Below are positions 15,153 to 45,700 of a DNA stretch of 47,940 bases, piece by piece. Origin of the DNA: Rhodospirillaceae bacterium (GTDB taxonomy: Bacteria > Pseudomonadota > Alphaproteobacteria > Bin65); NCBI GenBank assembly GCA_026709535.1, contig JAPOST010000096.1, positions 1 to 47,940 of the forward strand. Direction: 5' to 3'. The position numbers and the translations under genes were made by a program. The first letter of the stretch is position 1. Each line of letters opens with the position of its first letter. The notes beneath the pieces are model-generated. The model did not search any database, was not told the origin of the DNA, and saw only the letters and a program-made list of their open reading frames with translations.

Positions 15153-16343
15153 GTGAAAGTTGTTCATGATGAACCGTCCGCTCATGCGCATGACGGGCCG
15201 GATCTGACCAAAATTCTACCGTCGCTGAAAGAATCGCTGCGGCTGGTTGTCATCTACAATGGCGACAAGTCACAGCCCGGCTCGGTCATTCAGGAAACCA
15301 CGAACCCTCGGGCGTCGAAATCCTACCGACCAGTGGCGGAGGACATCGCCGACTGCCTGGAGAAGGCCGGTTTTCGCCATGTCACGCTGCTGCCCGACGA
15401 CATCAGCTTGCCAGCGCAAATCATCCGGCATGACCTGCAGTTTGCATGGATCAACTCTGCAGGGATCCAAGGCTACGACTCAGCCGGCCATACGTCGAGT
15501 ATGCTGGAGATGATGGGGATTCCCTATGTAGGACACTCTCCCGCCGCCGCGCTGATTCTGGACAACAAACATCTGTTCAAGCAGGCCGCGACAGGGCTGG
15601 GAATTGCCACCGCGCCCTTCACCATCTGGAACCCCGTCACCCATGGGAGTGCGCATCGGGACGCTGTCTTTTGGGAGCGTGCCTTCAACGCCTACCAAGG
15701 ACCGTTTATCGTCAAGCCGGTATCTGGCCGGGCGTCGTTGCATGTTCACTTTATCGACGACCGTTCCGGCCTTGCTCAAGTCGTCGAGAAAGTCTACGCT
15801 GACACGCACAATACGGTGTTGATTGAGACCTTCCTGTCCGGGCGGGAATTTACGATCGCGGTGGCGGGGCCGACGCGGTATCGCAAAGGCGTCGTCGATC
15901 GCCTTGATCAACCCTTTGTCATCTCGGTCGCCGAGCGCATCCTGACGCACGGCGAACGTATCTTCACATCCATGGACATCAGCCCCATCACGACCAAACG
16001 GGCCAGTATCTTGGACCCCGCTGCCGAACCGGATATTTACGACGAACTGGTCAGGATTGGCCGGAACGTATTCATGCAACACCAATTGGGTGCCTTGATC
16101 CGGGTGGACGTTCGGGCAGATGTGACCGGTCGGCTTTGTGTACTGGAGGTCAACCCGAAGCCCGACCTGACGCGTCCCCGGAAAGACAAGACGCCGTTGG
16201 TGGCTATGGGCCTGCCCGCACTGGACATGTCCTACGAGGACCTGTTGTTGAGCTTGCTGCTGGATCGCCTGCAGTTCTATTGCGATCACCGGCCCGGCGC
16301 GATCCGGCACATCGCGGATCTGGCCATGTTGCTCGAAACTTAG
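15153..16343 (+). CDS. ATP-grasp enzyme, D-alanine-D-alanine ligase-like
   Basis: This 396-residue protein has the ATP-grasp fold of D-Ala-D-Ala ligases, which join two substrates through an acyl-phosphate. It shows the N-terminal segment YVGHSPAAALILDNKHLFK, the ATP-binding strand FIVKPVSGRAS, the LIETFLSGREFTIAVAG strand, and the metal-binding end motif LEVNPKPDLTRP, equivalent to EVNTLPG in true ligases. Divergence at that motif and the lack of cell-wall genes nearby argue against a peptidoglycan role. The GTG start at 15153 has a weak ribosome site, but no better in-frame start is near. The gene is 2 bases from the sensor-MFS gene, so the two form an operon. It may ligate an amino acid or peptide moved or sensed by its neighbours. 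Confidence 0.82.
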   Translation: MKVVHDEPSAHAHDGPDLTKILPSLKESLRLVVIYNGDKSQPGSVIQETTNPRASKSYRPVAEDIADCLEKAGFRHVTLLPDDISLPAQIIRHDLQFAWINSAGIQGYDSAGHTSSMLEMMGIPYVGHSPAAALILDNKHLFKQAATGLGIATAPFTIWNPVTHGSAHRDAVFWERAFNAYQGPFIVKPVSGRASLHVHFIDDRSGLAQVVEKVYADTHNTVLIETFLSGREFTIAVAGPTRYRKGVVDRLDQPFVISVAERILTHGERIFTSMDISPITTKRASILDPAAEPDIYDELVRIGRNVFMQHQLGALIRVDVRADVTGRLCVLEVNPKPDLTRPRKDKTPLVAMGLPALDMSYEDLLLSLLLDRLQFYCDHRPGAIRHIADLAMLLET

Positions 16344-16345
16344 AG

Positions 16346-18754
16346 ATGTCCGGGAACATGACGTCCGCAACCGCTGAACCGCCGCAAACCAGCACGCCGA
16401 AGGCCCGCGCGAGCCTTTTGTACGGGCTGATCATGCTGATCGTCGCCTTGGCGTCGCTCTGGCTGCTGATCTATGTCGGTTATGCCGAGGGTCGGCGAAC
16501 CTATCAGAATCTTGTTGTCGACAAGATGATCGCGCAGGCCGAAATAGTGCAGACCCCTCTGAACACCTATCTGCGTGCCGGTTTGCCGCTAGAACACTTT
16601 CCGGGGTTTGCGCAGATCGGCAGGCGCGTGTTGTCTTCGGACCCGTCGATCCTTTCCATCACGGTGACCGACAGCAGCGGGAAACCGATTTTCCGCGAAG
16701 CGCGAGAGGGTGTCGAAGACTTCGGAAACCTGCCTCTTCCGCCCGACGGTGAGCGGATGCTGGCGCCAGATGATCCGACAACGATCCGGGCTCTGCTCCG
16801 CCTGCGCGACCGGTTTGAAACGGTCGGCGCGGTTGTGGTCGCGACGCCGCGTAGCGCTGTGGACTCGGTGGCGCGCAGGTATTTTTTGCTTGTGGTTCTG
16901 GTGGCCAGCGGCCTGGCAATTCTGTTTGCCTTGGGTGCCGTGTTGTTCAAGCGGCGTCTGGACGGCGCTCGATTCCCATGGCTTTACATCAGCTTCGGTG
17001 CGGCATTCGCTGCCGTCGCCGCCGCAGTGGTGTTGAACTTGGTCTCCCTCTATACCGGCGGCCTGCAGGGCAGGGCGCAAGCGCTGGCCGAATCCCTGCG
17101 ACAGCGCGTGGCTCCCGTGGTGGAATTCGAACTGGATATGAAGGACCTGGGCGGTTTGCGCGAGACGTTCCAGCAGTACAGGCATCTGAACAGCGATATC
17201 CAGGCCATCGGCATGATGCGGGGTGACCAAGTTCAGATCCACACTGACAGTGCGCGCGAAGGCACCACATGGCAGCCTCGTGCTGAAACCTACGAATTCG
17301 CTTCGACGATCGGCGCCACCAACTTGCGAATCGCGGTAACCCTGCCAACCAGCGTGGTCTGGCGCGCCGTTGCCAAGAACATCAGGAATTTCATTGCATT
17401 GTTCCTTGCAACTGTACTGTTCGCCGGTGTTCTCCTGCGTCTTGGTCACGTCTTGAGCGATAACCGAGAGGCGGCGAAAGATGCGCACGGGTCAACAGTG
17501 TCCGCGAATGCGACGAGAGCCATTGAATGGCTCAAGCTTCTGTTCTTTCTGGCAGTCTTTTTTGAACACCTGCCGGTGAGCTTTCTGCCGCAAATGCTGC
17601 GCGACGCTGCTGCCGCTGGCGGTTATGGCGCTGCAGCCGCCTCGTGGGCTTTCACTACCTATTTCCTGTGTTTCCTCATCGTACTGGTACCGGCTACCAA
17701 GATCGCCGACCTTCATGGTCCGCGCGCCTTGTTGTGGACCGGTGCGCTACTGGCAGGCAGCGGCGCACTGCTGCTCGCGCTTTCGGACTGGTTCCCGGCG
17801 CTTGCGGCCGCCCGGGGCCTTTCAGGGCTGGGTCAGGGGGCGCTGCTGATCGGCACTCAGACTTATATTGTGACTCACGCACCTAGGAACATGCGCACCC
17901 GCGCTGCAGCGGTGATCGTCTTCGGCTTCAACGGCGGCATGATCTCCGGCACCGCGATCGGCTCGCTGCTGGTAAATTACATCACCGCCCAAGGCGTATT
18001 CCTGTTGGGCGCTGCGACCGCCGCTGTGATCGCGTTCGCTGCGCTGACGATGATGCCGCGCATTGCGGGCGCCGCTGCGAGCAGCGTTGCACTGAATGCC
18101 AGCTTCTTCCAGGCCAGCAGGCGGGTGCTGACGAATCTCAAGTTCTTGCGGGTCATATGCCTGATAGGTCTGCCGTCCAAGGCCGTCCTCACAGGCATCG
18201 TCGTCTTCGCCATGCCGCTCGTGTTAAACGGAATGGGTTATCCGCCGGAAGATATCGGCCAGCTGATCATGATCTATCCATGTGGCGTGTTGCTGGCGAG
18301 CGGCTGGATTTCGCGTCGTGTGGACAATTTTGGCGGGGCGTTGAAAGCCCTGGCTGCTGGCGCCCTGATCGCTGGCGGCGGCATGATGACCGTCGGCCTG
18401 ACCGGGTGGGCCGACACACCATCGATTTTGACGTCTGGTAATCTGGAGCCGGTGATCATAGGCGTCGGGATCTTCCTGCTGGGTCTGGCCCATGGATTAA
18501 TCAATGCGCCGATCATCTCTTACGTGGCGAGTATGCCTCTGGCGCAGGAAATGGGTGCCAATCAGGTCACGTCGCTGTATCGCGTACTGGAACGCGCGGG
18601 CCATGTGGCGGGGCCGATACTGGCGGGACAATTGTTGCTGATGACTGGTGGTGGACCGATCTCGGTCGGGTGGGCCGGTATCGTCGCCATATTGCTGGGC
18701 ATTCTGTTCCTGCTGACCATGCTCGGCCGTCACTGGCAAGTAAACACAAGATAG
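16346..18754 (+). CDS. MFS permease with two N-terminal membrane sensor modules
   Basis: This 802-residue membrane protein combines three parts. The first sensor has a TM at about 24-47, a periplasmic Cache-like domain to about 178, and a TM at about 178-201. The second has a TM at about 211-238, another extracytoplasmic domain, and a TM at about 348-368. From about 396 to 795 follows a complete 12-TM major facilitator permease, with the loop segment VPATKIADLHGPRALLW matching the conserved MFS 2-3 loop. MFS carriers rarely carry such sensors. The architecture suggests a carrier gated by, or signalling about, an external ligand. The ATG at 16346 is 3 bases after the ATP-grasp stop (a second ATG is at 16358), and the binding-protein gene follows directly. 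Function is inferred. Confidence 0.8.
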   Translation: MSGNMTSATAEPPQTSTPKARASLLYGLIMLIVALASLWLLIYVGYAEGRRTYQNLVVDKMIAQAEIVQTPLNTYLRAGLPLEHFPGFAQIGRRVLSSDPSILSITVTDSSGKPIFREAREGVEDFGNLPLPPDGERMLAPDDPTTIRALLRLRDRFETVGAVVVATPRSAVDSVARRYFLLVVLVASGLAILFALGAVLFKRRLDGARFPWLYISFGAAFAAVAAAVVLNLVSLYTGGLQGRAQALAESLRQRVAPVVEFELDMKDLGGLRETFQQYRHLNSDIQAIGMMRGDQVQIHTDSAREGTTWQPRAETYEFASTIGATNLRIAVTLPTSVVWRAVAKNIRNFIALFLATVLFAGVLLRLGHVLSDNREAAKDAHGSTVSANATRAIEWLKLLFFLAVFFEHLPVSFLPQMLRDAAAAGGYGAAAASWAFTTYFLCFLIVLVPATKIADLHGPRALLWTGALLAGSGALLLALSDWFPALAAARGLSGLGQGALLIGTQTYIVTHAPRNMRTRAAAVIVFGFNGGMISGTAIGSLLVNYITAQGVFLLGAATAAVIAFAALTMMPRIAGAAASSVALNASFFQASRRVLTNLKFLRVICLIGLPSKAVLTGIVVFAMPLVLNGMGYPPEDIGQLIMIYPCGVLLASGWISRRVDNFGGALKALAAGALIAGGGMMTVGLTGWADTPSILTSGNLEPVIIGVGIFLLGLAHGLINAPIISYVASMPLAQEMGANQVTSLYRVLERAGHVAGPILAGQLLLMTGGGPISVGWAGIVAILLGILFLLTMLGRHWQVNTR

Positions 18755-18766
18755 TAGAGATTGGAC

Positions 18767-19963
18767 GTGGACAAGCGGAACTCAACCATCGCCGTAATTG
18801 GCGCCTGCCTGATGCTGTTCCTGACCGCGGGCGAGATCGTCGCCCAGGATCGGATGGCGCGGGTCGGCAAGTGGTTCAAGATTGGCCCCCTGGCCTTGAA
18901 ACACTGGAAGGTGGCCGTCCATCCGGATGATCCGCTTCGTGTCACGTTGAAGGCCAAGCCTGGCGTCTACAGCGGCGCCACCGGCTTCAAGAAAGTCATG
19001 GTGATATATCCACGCAAGTCGACGGCCTACGACATCGCGATGACCGAAATTGCTGCCACTTACGCCAACAAGGGCATCCGCGCGCAATTCGAGGTAGTGA
19101 ATTTTGACCGGAAGGCGGCGCGTGGCCATGCGCTGGTTGATGAAGCGGCCGGCAAAGGCTATTCGCTGATTTACTCCATGGGTTCTCAGACCACCGCCTG
19201 GCTGTGGAAAAACCGGCGCGACGGCAAAGTACCTATCGTGACGGTTTGCTCCAAGGACCCAGTTCTGCTGGGCCAGGTCAAGGACTATAAATCCAGCAGC
19301 GGAGTCAACTTCGCGTTCACGTCGTTGAACGTTCCGGTCGACGTCCAGATCGTCTATCTGAGGCAGTTGAAGCCCAAATTGAAGAACGTTGTCATCATGG
19401 TCGACGAGAATAATGTCAGCGCGGTGAAAACACAGGCCATCCCGATGGAAAAGGCGCTCGAAGCGGAAGGGATCAATGTCTTCCGTGTCTCCGTTACCGA
19501 TCCCAAAGTCGCTGGGGCTCAACTGGAAGTCATGGTGCCTGCTGCGGTGGCGCGCCTGCGCGAGACGGATCCGGATCTCAAGAACAGCCTGTTCTGGATC
19601 ACAGGCAGCACATCGGTTTTTGCGGAAATCAGGACGATCAACGAGCACTCCGACAGGGTGCCCGTCCTGAGCGTGGTGCCGGATATCGTCCAGAAGGGAC
19701 CTGATAGCGCGACGCTGGGCATTGGCGTAAGTTTCCAGAGTAACGCGCAGTTGGCGGCCAAAATTGGATCCGACATCCTAGAGGGGAAGGTAGAAGCAAA
19801 GGACCTCAAGGTGGCCATCGTGTCGCCGCCAAATATTGCCATCAGCTTCCTGCGCGCCCGCAAAATAGGCATGAAAATCCCGTTTAGCCTGTTCGAGGCG
19901 GCAGATGACATTTACGGTTATGGCGGTCAACCGCTGCGCCGCCGCGGCAAGACTGTGAACTGA
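18767..19963 (+). CDS. Orphan ABC_sub_bind-family periplasmic binding protein
   Basis: This 398-residue protein has an N-terminal signal peptide (charged DKRN, then a hydrophobic stretch ending near AGEIVAQD). The two-lobed fold is that of the ABC_sub_bind family (COG2984), whose members bind tryptophan, tyrosine and related compounds or act as sensor inputs. Family-like strands include KVMVIYPRKSTAYDIA, GYSLIYSMGSQTTAW, VVIMVDENNVSAVKTQA and VLSVVPDIVQKG. The GTG at 18767 is chosen because AGAGA lies 6 bases upstream. An in-frame TTG at 18761 has no room for a ribosome site. No ABC permease or ATPase gene is present, so it probably serves the neighbouring sensor-MFS protein or the Cache kinase rather than an ABC importer. 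Confidence 0.85.
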   Translation: MDKRNSTIAVIGACLMLFLTAGEIVAQDRMARVGKWFKIGPLALKHWKVAVHPDDPLRVTLKAKPGVYSGATGFKKVMVIYPRKSTAYDIAMTEIAATYANKGIRAQFEVVNFDRKAARGHALVDEAAGKGYSLIYSMGSQTTAWLWKNRRDGKVPIVTVCSKDPVLLGQVKDYKSSSGVNFAFTSLNVPVDVQIVYLRQLKPKLKNVVIMVDENNVSAVKTQAIPMEKALEAEGINVFRVSVTDPKVAGAQLEVMVPAAVARLRETDPDLKNSLFWITGSTSVFAEIRTINEHSDRVPVLSVVPDIVQKGPDSATLGIGVSFQSNAQLAAKIGSDILEGKVEAKDLKVAIVSPPNIAISFLRARKIGMKIPFSLFEAADDIYGYGGQPLRRRGKTVN

Positions 19964-19982
19964 GGCTCGCTGGCGTGCCTCA
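19961..19982 (+). terminator. Weak hairpin after the binding-protein gene
   Basis: A 6-bp inverted repeat, TGAGGC and GCCTCA with a 10-base loop, begins at the stop codon of the ABC_sub_bind gene. There is no T-run after it. It could mark the operon end, but this is a weak call. Confidence 0.25.
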
Positions 19983-20048
19983 ATGCTGTCCTTTGACCAA
20001 GAGGTGATCTGCCTGACTAAGAGGACTGGCATTATCGGATAACATCGG

Positions 20049-20476
20049 GGGAAAGCCGATTCGGGCTTCTGCCCCCAGAGATCAAGGCACCGGCGGATGT
20101 GCTGGTACGAGCGTCACGATGTCAACGACATTCTCGGCCGGGCACGCACCTGCGATGGCCTTGGCCGAGGCGGACTTTATTGATCTCGGCTACGGCGCCC
20201 GCTGCCGGGATCGGTGATCGCCCGCCTCGCGCACTTCCAACCTGACAGACGACGCTCAGGCACTCTACAAAGGTCTCGCCTGTACCCTGCTCAAAGCGAT
20301 CGGCCGGTGCTGCCTCAAGGGCACCCGGATGGTGCGTGCCCCGTGCAACACCCTCCCTCCCGAAGATCGGTGCCGCGATCACCGGCAATACCCGGTGGAT
20401 ACGCTTCCACCTGTCATCGGCCTGTCCCGAGCAGGACATCTTCCGTCTGGTCGCCGCACGGCCCAAACCCGGATAG
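20049..20476 (+). pseudogene. Decayed IS1380-family transposase
   Basis: Two parts of an IS1380-type DDE transposase can be read in different frames. The first, at about 20049-20183, reads KADSGFCPQ and then MCWYERHDVNDILGRART before a stop. This matches the family's catalytic ADSGF strand and the following region. The second, at about 20350-20476, reads LPKIGAAITGNTRWIRFHL and then SSACPEQDIFRLVAARPKPG before a stop. This matches the C-terminal LKIGA...RI.L.SA.P...LF region. Most of the protein between and before these parts is missing or scrambled. No terminal inverted repeats could be defined. It lies where the plus-strand ATP-grasp operon and the minus-strand kinase converge, so it disrupts no gene. 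Confidence 0.65.
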
Positions 20477-20534
20477 CACCCGGACCACAAGCAGCCCCAA
20501 TCCACCAAACCGGGCACTTCATGAAATAGCCGGG

Positions 20535-22685
20535 CTAGGTGTCTGATGATTTCGGCAGTTCGATAATCATTTCGGTGAATTCACCGGTTTTCGTCTCGAC
20601 GCGGATAGTACCCCCATGCCGCCGTATGATATCATTGGAAAGCGCAAGGCCGAGCCCAGTGCCTTCGTTGGTCGGCTTGGTTGTGAAGAAGGGGAGAAAG
20701 ATTTTCTCGACCACCTCATCCGGGATGCCGTTGCCATTGTCTCTAACACGGATTTCCACGCTACCGCCCAGGTTTCGTGTCATCAGCTGCAACAACGGCT
20801 TGTAGTCGACGTCGCCTTCCTTCATCTCGACTGCGTCCGGGTCGATCTTCTTTAACGCCGTCTGCTTTTCGTGGGTCGCGTAACAGGCGTTGGTCACCAT
20901 GTTCAGGAATACTCGGCTGAGGTCTTGAGGAATTACCTCGATTTCGCCGATCTCTGAGTCGAAATCCTCCTGAATCTCAATGTTGAAATCTGAATCATCG
21001 GCCCGCGCGCTATGATAGGCCAGGTTGGCGTGTTCCGATAGCAATACATTGATATTGGCCGGAAGGCGCTGGCTTGAACCGCGGCCCATCTGCAGCATGC
21101 TCTGGACGATATTGTTCGCGCGTTGGGCGTGCTCCTGAATTGTCTCAAGGTTGCCGGTCAGGTCTCCGGCGATCTCTTCGATCAGTTCAACGGTGTCGTC
21201 TTTCTCCTGACCATCCACGTCATCCTTGTTATTGGCTGCAGTCTTTCGCTCTTCGGCAAGACGGCTGATTTCTTCCAACATTTCATTCAGCAGTTCTCCC
21301 GAGACTTCGGAGAAATTCTTGATGAAATTCAATGGGTTCTTGATCTCGTGGGCGACGCCGGCGGTCAATTCGCCGAGGGCGGCCAGTTTCTCTCTTGTGA
21401 TGATCTGATCCTGGGCCTTTTCCAAGTCACTCAGCGTGCTTTCGAGAGATGCATTCTTGGATTTGAGTTCTTCGGCCAGGCTCTCGACCAGATTCGTCTC
21501 ATCAATAACCTGATGCAAGGGCCGAATGAACAAGCGACGCGAGAACCAGATTGCGAAAAACGCAATAAATAGAAGTACGACACCCAATGCAGCCACCAGC
21601 CTGACATAGTTGTCGTCAAGGGCTGCGGTGAAATCCGCTTCGGGAATCACTGTTCCAATGAACCAATCCTGCTTGGCCAACGGAGTCAGATTGACAAAGT
21701 AACGCTTGCCGCTGTCGGGCTCGGTATAAAGGCGAAACTGTTTCTTGTTGGCCGCGAGGTTCTTGGTATCCAATGCTGCGCTCGCGATCTTCAATATCGG
21801 GTTCTTGGTCTGGTTGAGTGGCGTCAACTCCAATCGGGAACTGCCTGTCTGAGTGCGGGTCACTTCCGACTTGTTCTTGAAGGCGATCATCCGCCCCTCG
21901 CGGTTGATGATGAAAGCTGCACCGGACCGCACGGATTTGATGGTGCCAAGATATCTGGAGATACGTTCCAGTTCGATGGCAATACTGACGACGCCGACCA
22001 ATTCACTGTCCTTGCGGAAGGTGATCGCTGAGTTCAGACCAGGAATGCCGCTGGTGGCGAAAATGTAAACGCTGGTCCAGACATGGGAATCTGGTTGGGC
22101 GATAGCGCGCTTGTACCACTGACGTTGTGTGGCGTTGTAGATGTTTTGCCGTTCTTCCGCACCGATTGGCAGTATATCGTCTTTGCTGTCGACCTTCAGG
22201 GACATTATCTGTCGGCTGGCGGTGCGTGTGTCTGGGTTCCAGATGCTTTCGACCAAGCGGTAATTCTTGCCATCAAGCCGCTGTGCACCGTAGAAATCGC
22301 CATCAGGCTTACCGAAGCTGACCCACGAGAAATGCCTGTTGGCCAGCAGGAAGGACATGAATACGGGCTCGCGCTTGGCCCGGTCTTTGATATCGAACGC
22401 CCCTTCAGTCAGCATCCTTCGGATCGCGCCTTGCGCCGCAATAGCCGAGGAAAAGACCTTGTTGGCCTCAAGGGAGACGCTGGCGACGATTTCGTCGGTC
22501 AGCTGCCTGATCATCTCCTCCGTATTGTCCCGGGACGCGAAATGCCAAGGCCCGTAAACCGCTGCGGCCGTGATAATCACAAGGATCAAGGCGAAAAAAA
22601 TATTACCAACGCTCAGCCCGACACGCAGTTTTTCCTGCCCGGCTTGAACAGTCTTCAGTGACGACTGGTTTTCTATTTCCGACAA
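20535..22685 (-). CDS. Cache-domain sensor histidine kinase
   Basis: This 716-residue kinase starts with a cytoplasmic tail, a TM at about 27-48 and a long periplasmic Cache-type sensor (about 50-355). A second TM (about 358-382) and a HAMP/coiled-coil linker follow. The phosphoacceptor segment is GVAHEIKNPLNF (His at 446). The ATP-binding domain shows DNGNGIPDE, FFTTKPTNEGTGLGLALSND and a C-terminal ELPKSSDT. It should autophosphorylate in response to an external small molecule. The start is TTG with GGG 7 bases upstream, and no other start gives the first TM a normal context. No response regulator gene lies in the window, so its partner is elsewhere. It faces the ATP-grasp/sensor-MFS/binding-protein operon, which suggests a shared ligand. 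Confidence 0.9.
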   Translation of the reverse strand: MSEIENQSSLKTVQAGQEKLRVGLSVGNIFFALILVIITAAAVYGPWHFASRDNTEEMIRQLTDEIVASVSLEANKVFSSAIAAQGAIRRMLTEGAFDIKDRAKREPVFMSFLLANRHFSWVSFGKPDGDFYGAQRLDGKNYRLVESIWNPDTRTASRQIMSLKVDSKDDILPIGAEERQNIYNATQRQWYKRAIAQPDSHVWTSVYIFATSGIPGLNSAITFRKDSELVGVVSIAIELERISRYLGTIKSVRSGAAFIINREGRMIAFKNKSEVTRTQTGSSRLELTPLNQTKNPILKIASAALDTKNLAANKKQFRLYTEPDSGKRYFVNLTPLAKQDWFIGTVIPEADFTAALDDNYVRLVAALGVVLLFIAFFAIWFSRRLFIRPLHQVIDETNLVESLAEELKSKNASLESTLSDLEKAQDQIITREKLAALGELTAGVAHEIKNPLNFIKNFSEVSGELLNEMLEEISRLAEERKTAANNKDDVDGQEKDDTVELIEEIAGDLTGNLETIQEHAQRANNIVQSMLQMGRGSSQRLPANINVLLSEHANLAYHSARADDSDFNIEIQEDFDSEIGEIEVIPQDLSRVFLNMVTNACYATHEKQTALKKIDPDAVEMKEGDVDYKPLLQLMTRNLGGSVEIRVRDNGNGIPDEVVEKIFLPFFTTKPTNEGTGLGLALSNDIIRRHGGTIRVETKTGEFTEMIIELPKSSDT

Positions 22686-23698: not shown

Positions 23699-24364
23699 TT
23701 GCTGACGCGGGATAATATCAAGAACGGCGTGCTTCAGGACATGATCAGGTCAGGAGGCGCCTCGCTGCAGATTTTGTCCGACGCTGAGTTGGAACAATCC
23801 TGGACAAAAACGCTTGCCGACCATCCCGAACCTGGCGCAGACATCTGGATCTTCGGTTACGGATCGCTGATCTGGAATCCGGCCTTCCGTTTTGCCGAAA
23901 AGCGGATCGGGCGCCTGTGCGGCTATCACCGGCGGTTTTGCCTGTGGACACATCTGGGGCGTGGTACGCCTGACCAGCCCGGTATGGTCCTAGGCCTGGA
24001 GCGTGGCGGCTCCTGCCGGGGGCTTGTGTTCCGGATTGCAGCCCAGGATGTCGCGGACGAGATCGAGATAATTTGGCGTCGCGAAATGGTCAGCGGTGCC
24101 TACCGGCCGCGCTGGACGAAAGTGGAAGCCGAGGAGGGCGCCGTGACAGCGATCTCCTTCATCATCAACCCGGTGCATCCGCGCTATGCGTGCAAGCCAC
24201 CCGAAGCCGACATCGTGAAGTCTCTTGCACATGCCAGAGGACCGTTGGGGGCAGCACGAGAGTATCTCGACAACACTGTCGAGCACTTGGAGGCGCTGGG
24301 CATTTGCGACAGGAACCTGCGCCGCCTTCGTCGCTTGGTATCCCGGGAAGCTGGCCCTGCCTGA
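23699..24364 (+). CDS. chaC: ChaC-like glutathione-specific gamma-glutamylcyclotransferase
   Basis: This 221-residue protein matches the ChaC family, which cleaves glutathione to 5-oxoproline and Cys-Gly in the cytoplasm. The family hallmark IWIFGYGSLIWNPAFR (about 49-64) forms the gamma-glutamyl pocket. It is followed by YHRRFCLWTHLGRGTPDQPG and LERGGSCRGLVFRI, also typical. The TTG at 23699 gives the usual N-terminus LTRDNIKNGVLQ. An ATG at 23741 would remove this conserved part. The gene stands alone between two long gaps. Its 5-oxoproline product links loosely to the oxoprolinase-like HyuAB pair at 5210-8997, but the pairing may be chance. Confidence 0.88.
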   Translation: MLTRDNIKNGVLQDMIRSGGASLQILSDAELEQSWTKTLADHPEPGADIWIFGYGSLIWNPAFRFAEKRIGRLCGYHRRFCLWTHLGRGTPDQPGMVLGLERGGSCRGLVFRIAAQDVADEIEIIWRREMVSGAYRPRWTKVEAEEGAVTAISFIINPVHPRYACKPPEADIVKSLAHARGPLGAAREYLDNTVEHLEALGICDRNLRRLRRLVSREAGPA

Positions 24365-26977: not shown

Positions 26978-28927
26978 TTGACGCTGGACCGGCTTGGCTT
27001 GGCAAGCACGAAGGTAGGCCGCGCGCTGGCCTTGGCACTCGCAGTGCTCACCCTCTATCTCGTGGTCATTGCGCTGATTGACGAAAACATCCTGCGTCTC
27101 GGCGTGATCGCAATTTCCGCGTTGATCGTGTTGTTCATCGAGCCGCTGGCGATCAAATACCCGACGTCATCCCCCCTGCGACGGCTGTTCAGCTGGATTA
27201 TCGACGGGATATTGCTGATCGGTTTTCTGATCACGGTCTACTGGTTCTGGATCACTGCTGATGAGCTGTGGGAGGGCGTCTTCGATTTCGAGACCTCCCA
27301 CATCGTCACCGGTTACTTCGGTTTGATCGTCATTCTGGAACTCACCCGGCGGACGTTTGGCCCACCGCTGATGCTGGTGACTCTGCTGTTCATCGTTTAT
27401 GCTGTATTAGGGCGCGATCTGCCCTGGATTCTCCAACACGCCGGGATCGATTGGACAGAGATTATCAGGACGACCTGGTACAGCCAGGACGGCGTCTTCG
27501 GCAGACCGGCCAGTATCGTCGCCAACCTGGTGCTGATCTTCATCATCTTCGGCGCGATTCTTGAAGCCAGTGGCGCCGGCGCGATTCTTTTGAAGATGTC
27601 CTTTGCCGCCACAGCAGCGATTCGTGGCGGTCCGGCTCACGCCGCGATCATGGCGAGCGCCCTGTTCGGAACGATGTCCGGCAGTGCGATGGCCAACGTA
27701 GTAGGAACCGGCGTCTTCACCATCCCAATGATCAAGAAACGCGGCTTCAAGCCACCCTTCGCCGGCGCGGTGGAAGCGGCCGCAAGCTGTTCCGGCCAGG
27801 TGACGCCGCCGATTATGGCCGCGGCTGCTTTCTTCGTCGCCGACTATACGGGCACACCGTACCTGATCCTGATCGTGGCAGCGTTGATGCCAGCCTTTTT
27901 CAAGTACATCAGCATCTTTGCTCAGGTGTATGCCGAGGCCATCCGGCTGGATATCAAGCCAATACCCAAGGCGGAACGCGAGAGGCTGACCCGGTATGAC
28001 TGGTTGCAGTCGCTGCGGTTCTTCCTGCCTGTCGCCGCTCTGATTGTCGTGCTGATTGAAGGTCGGTCACCGGCGATGGCGGCCGCGATCGCGATGGCGC
28101 TGGCGCTGGTCATGTCCTTTGCCTTGGACCTGATGGGGCGGGCGAGAGGCCTGAAGGCCCTGGGCGGTGACCCTCTCCGATATGTGAAAGCGATTGCTGA
28201 ATCCGGGTATCAGTGTGCGCGGATCATGGTGGCGGTCGGCGCGATCGGCATCATCATCGGCGTGGTGAACGAAACCGGAGTTGGCATTCGGTTCGCCCAA
28301 CTCCTCTCGGTTGGCAACGGCAGCCTGTTCTTGGCGTTTGTCTTCGCGATGCTGGGGTCCCTCGTGCTGGGCATGGGCTTGCCGACACTGCCTGCCTACC
28401 TGATCATCGTCCTCATTCTGGGTCCGGCTATCGTTCAGTTGGGCGAGGATGCCGGGGTCACGTTACTGGCTGTCCACTTGTTCGTTTTCTATTTCGCCGC
28501 GCTGTCGTCGCTGACGCCGCCTGTTGCGCTGGCCGCCTACGCGGCCGCCCCGATCGCGGGCGCCAAGCCATTCGAAACAGCCATACAGTCGGTGCGTATC
28601 TCCCTGGTCAGCTTCATCATTCCGTTCGTTTTCGTCTTCAATCCGTCGCTACTGCTGATCGACAAGTTCGACATCATCGATTTTGTTTGGGTAAGCGCGC
28701 GATTGCTTCTGGCGATCTGGATGGTTGCCACCGGGTTTGCCGGCTACGACTCGACCGGCAGATTGTCGCTGCCTATCCGTATTCTGCGCCTTGGCGCCGG
28801 ATTCGTCATGCTCTACCCGTCACTCGTTTTTGAAGCTGCAGCGTTCGCGGTGGGCTCTATCTTGTATATAATGGGCTGGATTGTCCGACCGCGGACACGA
28901 AAACCGGCTGATGCCCCATCCGCCTGA
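26978..28927 (+). CDS. TRAP transporter fused permease (DctQM, TAXI type)
   Basis: This 649-residue membrane protein fuses the small 4-TM DctQ-like and the large 12-TM DctM-like parts of a TRAP carrier, as is usual for TAXI systems. It should import a carboxylate or related solute with sodium or protons. Recognisable DctM segments are SGAGAILLKMSFAATAAIRG, GPAHAAIMASALFGTMSGSA, AASCSGQVTPPIMAAAAFFV, and GMGLPTLPAYLIIVLILGPA. The start is TTG, supported by GGGGGAG 5 bases upstream. The solute-binding gene follows 54 bases later, and the CoA-transferase pair precedes it on the same strand. Confidence 0.93.
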   Translation: MTLDRLGLASTKVGRALALALAVLTLYLVVIALIDENILRLGVIAISALIVLFIEPLAIKYPTSSPLRRLFSWIIDGILLIGFLITVYWFWITADELWEGVFDFETSHIVTGYFGLIVILELTRRTFGPPLMLVTLLFIVYAVLGRDLPWILQHAGIDWTEIIRTTWYSQDGVFGRPASIVANLVLIFIIFGAILEASGAGAILLKMSFAATAAIRGGPAHAAIMASALFGTMSGSAMANVVGTGVFTIPMIKKRGFKPPFAGAVEAAASCSGQVTPPIMAAAAFFVADYTGTPYLILIVAALMPAFFKYISIFAQVYAEAIRLDIKPIPKAERERLTRYDWLQSLRFFLPVAALIVVLIEGRSPAMAAAIAMALALVMSFALDLMGRARGLKALGGDPLRYVKAIAESGYQCARIMVAVGAIGIIIGVVNETGVGIRFAQLLSVGNGSLFLAFVFAMLGSLVLGMGLPTLPAYLIIVLILGPAIVQLGEDAGVTLLAVHLFVFYFAALSSLTPPVALAAYAAAPIAGAKPFETAIQSVRISLVSFIIPFVFVFNPSLLLIDKFDIIDFVWVSARLLLAIWMVATGFAGYDSTGRLSLPIRILRLGAGFVMLYPSLVFEAAAFAVGSILYIMGWIVRPRTRKPADAPSA

Positions 28928-28981
28928 CTTGTCAGGCAGCCAAATCCGGGAATTGGGACCAGAGAGCGAGAGAGAAATAAC

Positions 28982-30022
28982 ATGATATACAGAATCGTAA
29001 TTGCCGTCGCGATGACCCTTTCCCTCGGCGGCGCAGTGGCGCAGGCCAAGGATTTCTACAAGATGGGCAGCCTCGCCCCAGGCATGTCGCCCTTCACGAT
29101 CAATACAGCCTTCGCCACCATCGTGAACAAGCATGTCAAAGACGTGCAGATACAGGTGTCGGCGACTGGGTCCGGCATGCGCCACCAGCTTCTGGTTTCG
29201 AAAGGCAAGATGGATTTCTACATGTCCTCGCCCGTCGGTCAGTGGTTGATGGAAAGCCAGAACGGCCCGTTCAAGAAACTCAAGAACGGCCAGGAACTTT
29301 CCAGCAGGCTGCGCCACATTTTCACCTATGAGATCGGGCCTTATCATTACGTGACCTACGCCGGATCCGGCATCAAGACGATCGCCGACCTCAAGGGAAA
29401 GAAGGTATTCATCGGCCCGCCCGGCGGTGCTGCGACCCGAGTTGTCGCCATCATGATCAAGGCGCAGTCCGGTCTTGAGGCAGGCAAGGACTATACCAAG
29501 ATCAATATGGGGTGGGGCGCGGCCATTCAGGCCTTCCAGGACAAGAAATTCGATGTTCTGATCTTCCCGACCAATGCGCCGAGTCCGGCTATCCAGCAGA
29601 TCGCGCTGAACAACAAATTGCGTCTGCTGTCAGTGGACGTATCCAAACAAGGCGGCTTGCTGCGAACCCCTGGCCGGACGATCCGGACTATCGATCCGAC
29701 GGTTTACGGCAAGAACATGGTCAACACCGAACCGGTTTCGACTCTGGGCGCCCTCGTAGGCGTCGGCGTACGCGCCGACATGCCAGAGGATGTGGTCTAC
29801 AGGATCACCAGGGCTTTCTGGGAGAACGTGAGCGAGGCGCACGCTACGGCAGTGTGGATGAAGAACGCAGTCAATCTGAGAGTGGCTCTTGTCGTTGTGC
29901 CTCACGGCTTGCATCCGGGCGCGGCACGCTACTATATGGAGAAGGGGCTGAATATCCCGGCTGCCTACCGGCTTGGCCAGAAGTGGGACGCCAAATCAAT
30001 GACCTTCAAGAGCAAGCAATAG
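28982..30022 (+). CDS. TAXI-family TRAP solute-binding protein
   Basis: This 346-residue periplasmic protein delivers ligand to the fused TRAP permease just upstream. It has a clear signal peptide (MIYRIVIAVAMTLSLGGAVA then QAK). TAXI-family features follow: YKMGSLAPGMSPF, VQVSATGSGMRHQLLVSKGKMDF (split across lobe 1), the KGKKVFIGPPGGAATRVV segment, and AAIQAFQDKKFDVLIFP. Ligands of the family include glutamate and other carboxylates, and the ligand here is unknown. A purine-rich ribosome site precedes the ATG. Confidence 0.92.
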   Translation: MIYRIVIAVAMTLSLGGAVAQAKDFYKMGSLAPGMSPFTINTAFATIVNKHVKDVQIQVSATGSGMRHQLLVSKGKMDFYMSSPVGQWLMESQNGPFKKLKNGQELSSRLRHIFTYEIGPYHYVTYAGSGIKTIADLKGKKVFIGPPGGAATRVVAIMIKAQSGLEAGKDYTKINMGWGAAIQAFQDKKFDVLIFPTNAPSPAIQQIALNNKLRLLSVDVSKQGGLLRTPGRTIRTIDPTVYGKNMVNTEPVSTLGALVGVGVRADMPEDVVYRITRAFWENVSEAHATAVWMKNAVNLRVALVVVPHGLHPGAARYYMEKGLNIPAAYRLGQKWDAKSMTFKSKQ

Positions 30023-44002: not shown

Positions 44003-45700
44003 ATGGCGTATGCAATTCCGCGCCCGGACTATGCAGACATGTTTGGCCCAACCGTTGGCGATCGGATCCGCCTCGCCGACACCGAGTTATTTATCGAGGT
44101 AGAGCGCGATTTCACCACGTATGGCAATGAAGTGACATTCGGCGGTGGCAAGGTCATCCGCGACGGTATGGGCCAGTCCCAGGCCACGCGGGCAGAGGGC
44201 GCAGCCGACACGGTCGTGACGAACGCGCTCATCCTTGATCACTGGGGGGTGGTCAAGGCGGATATCGGCATCCGCGACGGACGTATCCTTGCAATCGGCA
44301 AGGCGGGAAACCCGGATATCCAGGATGACGTGGAAATTGTCATCGGCCCCGGTACTGAAATCATTGCCGGCGAAGGCAAGATCGTGACCGCCGGCGGCTT
44401 CGACTGCCATATCCACTTCATCTGCCCGCAGCAGATCGATGAGGCGCTGGCCTCGGGCATAACGACCATGATGGGAGGGGGTACCGGCCCGGCGACTGGC
44501 ACCAACGCCACCACCTGCACGCCAGGTCCCTGGCACCTGCAGCGGATGATTGAGGCTGCGGACGGATTTGCGATGAATCTGGGCTTCGCCGGCAAAGGCA
44601 ACGCCAGCCTCCCGGCCGCTCTGGAGGAGCAGGTCAGGTCAGGCGCCTGCGCGCTCAAGCTTCACGAAGACTGGGGAACGACGCCAACCGCCATCGACAC
44701 CTGCCTGGGCGTAGCGGACGCGATGGACATTCAGGTGATGATCCATACCGACACGCTAAACGAATCCGGCTTCGTCGAGCACACCATCGCCGCATTCAAG
44801 AACCGTACGATCCACGCCTTCCATACTGAAGGAGCAGGAGGTGGCCACGCCCCGGACATCATCAAGGTCTGCGGTCTCGCCAATGTGCTGCCGTCCTCGA
44901 CCAACCCCACGCGACCCTACACGGTCAATACGATCGATGAGCATCTCGACATGCTTATGGTTTGCCATCATCTGAATCCGCGCATCGCTGAGGACGTTGC
45001 TTTTGCCGAAAGTCGCATACGCAAGGAAACTATCGCTGCCGAAGACATTCTGCACGATATGGGTGCGTTCTCGATCATCGCTTCCGACAGCCAAGCGATG
45101 GGTCGGGTGGGCGAAGTGGCGATTCGAACTTGGCAGACCGCTGACAAGATGAAGCGTCAGTTCGGGCGGATGGCATGCGAACGCGGGGACAACGACAATC
45201 TACGCGCCCGGCGCTATATCGCCAAATATACAGTCAACCCGGCCATTGCTCACGGTATGGCAGAGCACATCGGCTCTGTCGAGGCCGGCAAGCTCGCGGA
45301 TTTGGTCGTTTGGTCGCCGCCGTTCTTCGGAGTGAAGCCGGACTTGGTGCTTAAGGGAGGCATGATCGCAACTGCCGTCATGGGAGACCCCAATGCTTCG
45401 ATTCCGACCCCGCAGCCTGAGCATTTCCGTCCGATGTTCGCCAACTTCGGACGGGCGCGGCCCGCGACCTCTCTCACCTTTGTGAGCGAAGCGAGCCTTG
45501 ACGCGGGTTTCAAATCTGCCCGTGGGTTTGAGGCCGTTCGGCGCACGCGGACCATTGGAAAACAAGATATGGTGCTGAATGATCTCACGCCCGACATGGA
45601 AGTCGATCCGGAGACCTACGAGGTGCGGGCGGACGGGGCGCTGCTGACTTGCGAGCCGGCAGAGGTACTGTCCATGGCGCAGCGCTATTTTCTGTTCTAG
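44003..45700 (+). CDS. ureC: Urease alpha (catalytic) subunit
   Basis: This 565-residue subunit hydrolyses urea to ammonia and carbamate at a two-nickel site. All catalytic residues appear to be present: HxH in [10 protein letters not shown] (H136, H138), the carbamylated Lys in [10 protein letters not shown] (K219, with H221), nickel His residues in [11 protein letters not shown] and [12 protein letters not shown], the flap His in MVCHHLNP, and the Asp in ASDSQAMGR. The ATG at 44003 gives the normal N-terminus [20 protein letters not shown] frame open since 43772 overlaps ureB and is not used. Length is standard. Confidence 0.98.

Follow-up and report, generated by a model that had tools for sequence, protein, structure and literature searches.

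A conserved gene trio of an ATP-grasp ligase, a double-sensor MFS protein and an orphan binding protein lies beside interchangeable signalling genes in alphaproteobacteria and on Vibrio plasmids

The stretch of DNA analysed (the window) is a contig of 47,940 nucleotides (JAPOST010000096.1) from a Rhodospirillaceae bacterium, belonging to a genome assembly of 3.67 Mb in 203 contigs, and the subject of this study is a group of four genes within it. Three of these form a plus-strand operon coding successively for an ATP-grasp ligase resembling D-alanine--D-alanine ligase (Ddl; 15153..16343, 396 residues), a sensor-bearing protein of the major facilitator superfamily (sensor-MFS; 16346..18754, 802 residues), and a substrate-binding protein with the ABC_sub_bind/TrpX fold (18761..19963, 400 residues), the gap between the first and second genes being 2 nucleotides and that between the second and third 6 nucleotides. 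The fourth gene (20535..22685), located on the minus strand and convergent with the operon, codes for a dCache histidine kinase of 716 residues. An earlier note on this DNA, prepared from the letters alone, had placed the four genes at these same coordinates and described the operon as tight, and on both points it proved accurate. Its family assignments were upheld by Pfam for the ligase, the MFS protein and the dCache kinase, whereas the binding protein gave no Pfam ABC_sub_bind match on its own and owed its placement to its relatives and its fold.

Across 18 alphaproteobacterial genomes from many families, that of the window included, the ligase, sensor-MFS and binding-protein genes (the trio) kept one order. 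A single search of genome contigs with the binding protein alone matched only Curvivirga and a Clostridia TrpX. Whole-genome searches returned the trio in the same order and on the same strand in G102, G089, G079, G157, G203, G211, G376, G439 and G658, and the same arrangement was present in G787, G830, G834, G836, G840, G841 and Curvivirga aplysinae (L010), G843 having the same trio locus (L069) as the last of these. In G007, the nearest relative found, the trio is divided over two contigs. Within a sample of 385 genomes of the class, the ligase was detected in 9, the binding protein in 10 and both in 8, a co-occurrence with a hypergeometric probability of 4e-14 (uncorrected for relatedness), and wherever the two genes shared a contig they flanked the MFS gene in the same order. 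The ligase and the binding protein were both present in the same 4 genomes of a 398-genome sample of the phylum, and both matched the same 6 of 72,556 plasmids, all of them from Vibrio. The distribution is patchy, across scattered marine and environmental bacteria, and neither the operon nor the Cache protein was found in six congeners of the window organism.

It follows from this co-occurrence and conserved order that a chance neighbourhood of the trio can be ruled out. Each of the families is common when taken alone, as would suit a set of unrelated neighbours, but the order is kept across two bacterial classes at roughly 30-55% identity and the co-occurrence is far above chance, so that such an explanation, refuted for the trio itself, is extremely improbable for the locus. 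The adjacency of the three genes, on which the proposal had been staked beforehand, held in 17 other alphaproteobacterial genomes and on the Vibrio plasmids. Since these genes always travel together beside an interchangeable signalling protein they have the appearance of one system, and it is nearly certain that the trio and the neighbouring receptor constitute one conserved unit.

A signalling gene accompanied the trio at 17 of the 18 alphaproteobacterial loci (at one, L064, a Cache cyclase about 3.7 kb from the binding-protein gene). That of the window contains, according to Pfam, a dCache_1 sensor (46.2 bits against a cut-off of 45; residues 79-343, 21657..22451, minus strand) followed by a HisKA-HATPase_c output (residues 437-712, 20550..21377, minus strand), and is thus a Cache histidine kinase; no response-regulator open reading frame was found beside it in the upstream direction. 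The outputs of the remaining loci, assigned by Pfam for representatives and by BLAST to those representatives for the rest, comprised a dCache-adenylate/guanylate cyclase in seven genomes (G007, G211, G830, G834, G836, G840 and G841), in most of which it is convergent and adjacent like the window kinase; a GAF-PAS-histidine kinase in five (G102, G089, G157, G376 and, cut by a contig end, G203), accompanied by response regulators in G089 and G157; and a GAF-PAS-GGDEF-EAL protein in four (G079, G439, G658 and G787). In Curvivirga aplysinae the genes that follow the trio (L010 4810-12727) are large and of polyketide-synthase type, rather than a signalling gene.

The dCache_1 domain is common to the window kinase and the operon-adjoining cyclases, whose cyclase domain stands where the kinase has its HisKA-HATPase_c output, just as a GAF-PAS-PAS part is common to the GAF-PAS kinases and the GGDEF-EAL proteins. 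Cache-domain identity between the window kinase and the G007 cyclase is 56%, and it amounts to 41-46% with the rest of the operon-adjoining cyclases; at this shared place, therefore, the Cache sensor has been kept and the output exchanged. With strong matches to the window Cache domain defined by E<1e-40, such a match was present in 12 of 18 operon-bearing against 1 of 18 operon-less genomes (Fisher 3e-4), in 7 of 7 against 1 of 9 within family f93 (1.4e-3), and in 2 of 2 against 0 of 9 within the family of the window organism (0.018). Pairwise Cache identity tracked that of the binding protein (r 0.91) and of the ligase (r 0.93; Mantel p 2e-4), figures that are inflated by shared ancestry, yet the operon-less congeners were also without the Cache protein (0/6). 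The link drawn previously between operon and kinase therefore stands at the level of the Cache sensor, through its convergent place and its co-variation. The kinase as a fixed part was rejected, for the histidine kinase is only one output among several that can replace one another, and not the usual one. That the Cache kinase of the window belongs to the unit is nevertheless very probable.

The binding protein gave a weak NCBIfam match to TrpX (6.6e-11; 41.9 bits against a cut-off of 390), while PF04392 was matched by 18 of its 23 aligned relatives, the best at 3.1e-18. Its structural model (predicted local distance difference test score, pLDDT, 92.7) had as top fold matches the ABC_sub_bind structures 6hnj and 6hni (CD0873), 3lkv and 3lft, so that relatives and fold together place it in the ABC_sub_bind family. 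Of the solved relatives whose ligand is named, 3lft is the nearest and holds L-Trp, a finding that fits an amino-acid ligase. BLAST with the TrpY/TrpZ-like proteins of a Clostridia locus (L011) revealed no ATP-binding cassette (ABC) permease beside the binding protein in 31 loci, the nearest ATPase match lying at a distance of 3.4 kb, within a transport locus that seems unrelated, and neither permease nor ATPase lay beside the trio in four Vibrio loci. A hidden neighbouring ABC importer, which if usual in relatives would have told against the earlier proposal, was thereby ruled out, in agreement with the earlier description of this protein as an orphan. It shares both fold and sequence family with the binding protein of the TrpX-type tryptophan importer, but whereas the latter is accompanied by a permease and an ATPase, as at L011, the trio is without both.

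The model of the sensor-MFS protein (pLDDT 85; predicted template modelling score 0.83) confirmed two extracytoplasmic modules: a unit made up of two helices, a sheet of four to five strands and a further helix occurs twice, and the MFS core comes after it. Module 1 (residues 17-205; 16394..16960, plus strand) consists of a long helix leading from the membrane into the periplasm, a PAS-like sheet and a transmembrane helix; module 2 (residues 212-379; 16979..17482, plus strand) has the same layout, and a profile-profile match between the two (92% probability, E 5e-7) indicated that they are homologous. Neither module matched a Pfam family, and since the fold search with the whole model matched the MFS domain alone among the 50 matches listed, the likeness of the modules to PAS and Cache domains is one of secondary-structure layout. 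The core (residues 384-799; 17495..18742, plus strand) has the MFS fold with 12 transmembrane helices according to Pfam (MFS_1, E 4.9e-30, residues 399-757), the model and the fold search.

In this core motif B (R490, GxGQG) and a YRxxERxGHxxGP helix are conserved, the Asp of motif A is lost in many members, and a weak NCBIfam match relates the protein to aromatic acid/H+ symporters. Such features would suit a system of nutrient uptake or trapping, in which the binding protein feeds an importing MFS protein, the ligase conjugates the import and the output regulates use of the nutrient; the retained motif B and charged helix residues and the symporter match all count in its favour, and binding-protein-dependent secondary transport exists in the tripartite ATP-independent periplasmic (TRAP) and tripartite tricarboxylate transporter (TTT) systems. 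However, swappable global outputs (cyclase, GGDEF-EAL, kinase and control of type VI secretion) fit signalling better, and no catabolic genes are common to the loci, which leaves nutrient uptake rather unlikely.

The ligase matched PF07478 (E 2.6e-12), and its residues K139, K188, E225, E232, R317, D319, E332 and N334, corresponding to the ATP and Mg motifs, are kept in the operon members aligned. Its best curated Ddl score in NCBIfam (80.4 bits) missed the cut-off of 243, its scores for all named families likewise being far under the cut-offs, and the substrate loops of Ddl are replaced by family-specific motifs, the Tyr region of the omega-loop by FTSMD.PIT and SPGMTxHS by PKPDLKxP (NPKPDL). 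The enzyme thus resembles Ddl in its ATP-grasp core but differs in its substrate loops, and scores and loop residues together ruled out a true Ddl or vancomycin-type ligase. The scores bear also on the idea of a detoxification system, whereby the ligase would modify, and the MFS protein expel, a toxic amino-acid analogue detected by the binding protein and the kinase: the relatives of the ligase include vancomycin-resistance ligases, as they would for any Ddl-like protein, and the fold neighbours of the MFS protein include the multidrug exporters MdfA and NorA, but any MFS protein gives such neighbours and the ligase scores far below every named-family cut-off, so that detoxification is very unlikely. 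Two ligase paralogues in G133 (L044 and L045), situated at contig ends where no MFS or binding-protein gene is visible, no longer have several of the residues that are invariant elsewhere.

Beyond the trio itself, the binding protein (at 32-38% identity) and the double-sensor module recur in two related arrangements. The first, represented by L046, L048, L082, L083 and L087-L089, combines a TauD dioxygenase, the binding protein, usually a TPR protein, the sensor-MFS protein and an enzyme resembling homocitrate synthase, often together with a P-loop protein that falls outside the known families, and is possibly an undescribed biosynthetic cluster. In the second (L047, L081, L085 and L091) the binding protein and a SpoIIE-type phosphatase, another type of output, lie beside a stand-alone double-sensor protein without an MFS domain; L046 combines both arrangements. 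The four loci without MFS yielded neither a ligase gene nor one of the TauD or homocitrate-synthase-like kind, whereas every MFS-bearing locus of the family has either the ligase or the TauD/homocitrate-synthase-like enzyme. The enzymes therefore appear tied to the transporter, since the two are present or absent jointly, whereas the binding protein and the sensors are retained throughout.

A change of enzyme class around constant binding protein and sensors, like the grouping of an enzyme with a transporter, a binding protein and a receptor at a single locus, is what might be expected of a self-made signal loop comparable to LuxS and LuxP/LuxQ, with the ligase making an autoinducer, the MFS protein exporting it, the binding protein binding it and the kinase or cyclase reporting cell density. 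LuxP is among the fold neighbours of the binding protein, at rank 47, but this similarity is generic, nothing shows export or secretion, and congeners are without the whole system; a loop of this kind is accordingly rather unlikely.

Outside the alphaproteobacteria, inspection of four Vibrio plasmids (L101-L104, from V. tubiashii, V. crassostreae, V. europaeus and V. gigantis) located the trio in each case within a type VI secretion system (T6SS) cluster, with tssH on one side and, on the other, a second, small (PBPb-type) binding-protein gene, an FHA gene and tssJ. On the three plasmids with open frames, the ligase is 45-46%, the MFS protein 28-29% and the binding protein 35-36% identical to its window counterpart. 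In the record for V. europaeus NPI-1, the reading frames of the ligase and the binding protein (L103 8506-9815 and 12010-13145) are broken and no gene is annotated at either, the sister plasmids having intact copies. In V. crassostreae and V. gigantis, two of the four, a protein-kinase gene follows tssM. The periplasmic sensing complex TagQRST of P. aeruginosa activates the T6SS kinase PpkA (PMC6082577), and the Vibrio trio, placed beside an FHA gene and in these two plasmids upstream of a protein-kinase gene, could by analogy with TagQRST-PpkA-Fha be a T6SS input of a similar sort; the window locus, unlike that of TagQRST, has no such T6SS link.

The reading preferred here, which as a whole has about an even prospect of being correct, is that the trio and the neighbouring receptor sense and handle a small extracytoplasmic compound. 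The binding protein would capture this compound, probably amino-acid-like, in the periplasm and hand it on to the pair of PAS-like modules carried by the MFS protein, docking of the one on the other being narrowly favoured. The MFS core, gated by the modules, would then carry either the compound itself or one of its derivatives across the inner membrane, and the ligase would make or modify the compound in the cytoplasm; action of the ligase on the MFS cargo is narrowly favoured. Ligand occupancy would be reported to whichever exchangeable output protein is encoded alongside, namely the dCache kinase in the window, a dCache cyclase, GAF-PAS kinase or GAF-PAS-GGDEF-EAL protein in its relatives, and the FHA/protein-kinase branch of the T6SS in Vibrio. 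A more specific version, in which the MFS protein is a secondary transporter gated by the binding protein through its two sensor modules, and is also a receptor feeding exchangeable outputs, with its own cargo or signal supplied by the ATP-grasp enzyme, is offered as a tentative possibility. Of the sense-synthesise-transport module envisaged in the earlier note, the conserved trio, the lack of ABC partners and the Cache link have thus been substantiated, while the class of ligand, docking, transport and its direction, and the role and product of the ligase are what we infer.

Several observations weigh against sensing and handling by a single coupled system. In P. aeruginosa the neighbouring binding-protein and kinase genes of the pairs AgtB/AgtS and PA4985/AruS were shown to specify proteins that do not interact (PMC11113362), and hence adjacency of such genes need not imply interaction. 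In the GAF-PAS outputs Pfam found sensor domains of cytoplasmic type alone, and the binding protein can therefore probably not touch the output directly at those loci. Curvivirga has no output gene adjoining the trio and a Cache cyclase elsewhere in its genome, Cache cyclases are likewise encoded elsewhere in G102, G376, G089 and G843, and G839 has one without the operon. Lastly, two distant loci (L016 5887-10554 and L018 658-4641) contain in a row a small sensor-like membrane protein, a single-sensor MFS protein and an ABC_sub_bind protein, with in L016 an NMT1/TAXI-like binding protein also, and have no obvious enzyme.

Among known systems, LuxP-LuxQ, TorT-TorS and XylFII-LytS also have a periplasmic binding protein that lacks an ABC transporter of its own and whose gene adjoins that of a membrane receptor kinase; the fold matches of the trio's binding protein included structures of XylFII-LytS and LuxP, and its gene is similarly conserved beside a receptor gene. 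The present system differs in that the constant partner is an MFS protein with two sensor modules together with an ATP-grasp enzyme, and in that the output is interchangeable and sometimes cytoplasmic. Linkage of an MFS-fold protein to a histidine kinase recalls UhpC-UhpB, in which an MFS sensor operates with a kinase, but to our knowledge UhpC lacks extracytoplasmic sensor modules and has neither a binding protein nor a ligase. No published description of the gene set, of sensor-MFS fusions or of a T6SS-embedded trio was found in the literature searched, most subscription journals being outside its coverage. The individual parts, like binding-protein-coupled signalling in general, are known already; as judged by that literature, the gene set, the duplicated MFS sensor modules and the plug-in outputs have not been found described.

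Orphan binding proteins occur widely, mostly with no explanation to account for them. The one described here is part of a cassette with a fixed core and with plug-in outputs that span kinase, cyclase, cyclic di-GMP enzymes, a SpoIIE-type phosphatase (at the distant loci) and T6SS control (in Vibrio). The cassette offers testable partners and a natural series of output swaps, links an ATP-grasp enzyme to its likely ligand, and may reveal a small-molecule signal common to alphaproteobacteria and marine Vibrio.

Elsewhere in the window, an Rfam match to the 5_ureB small RNA (RF02514, 105.7 bits; 44158-44444, minus strand) is antisense to the start of a urease gene, and may reflect conserved ureB coding sequence instead of a real RNA. 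Beyond the kinase gene lies one for a ChaC-like gamma-glutamylcyclotransferase (23699-24364), and further along a gene for a large membrane protein precedes a second gene of binding-protein-like type (26978-30022); judged by reading alone, the two resemble a fused TRAP permease together with a binding protein of the TAXI type.

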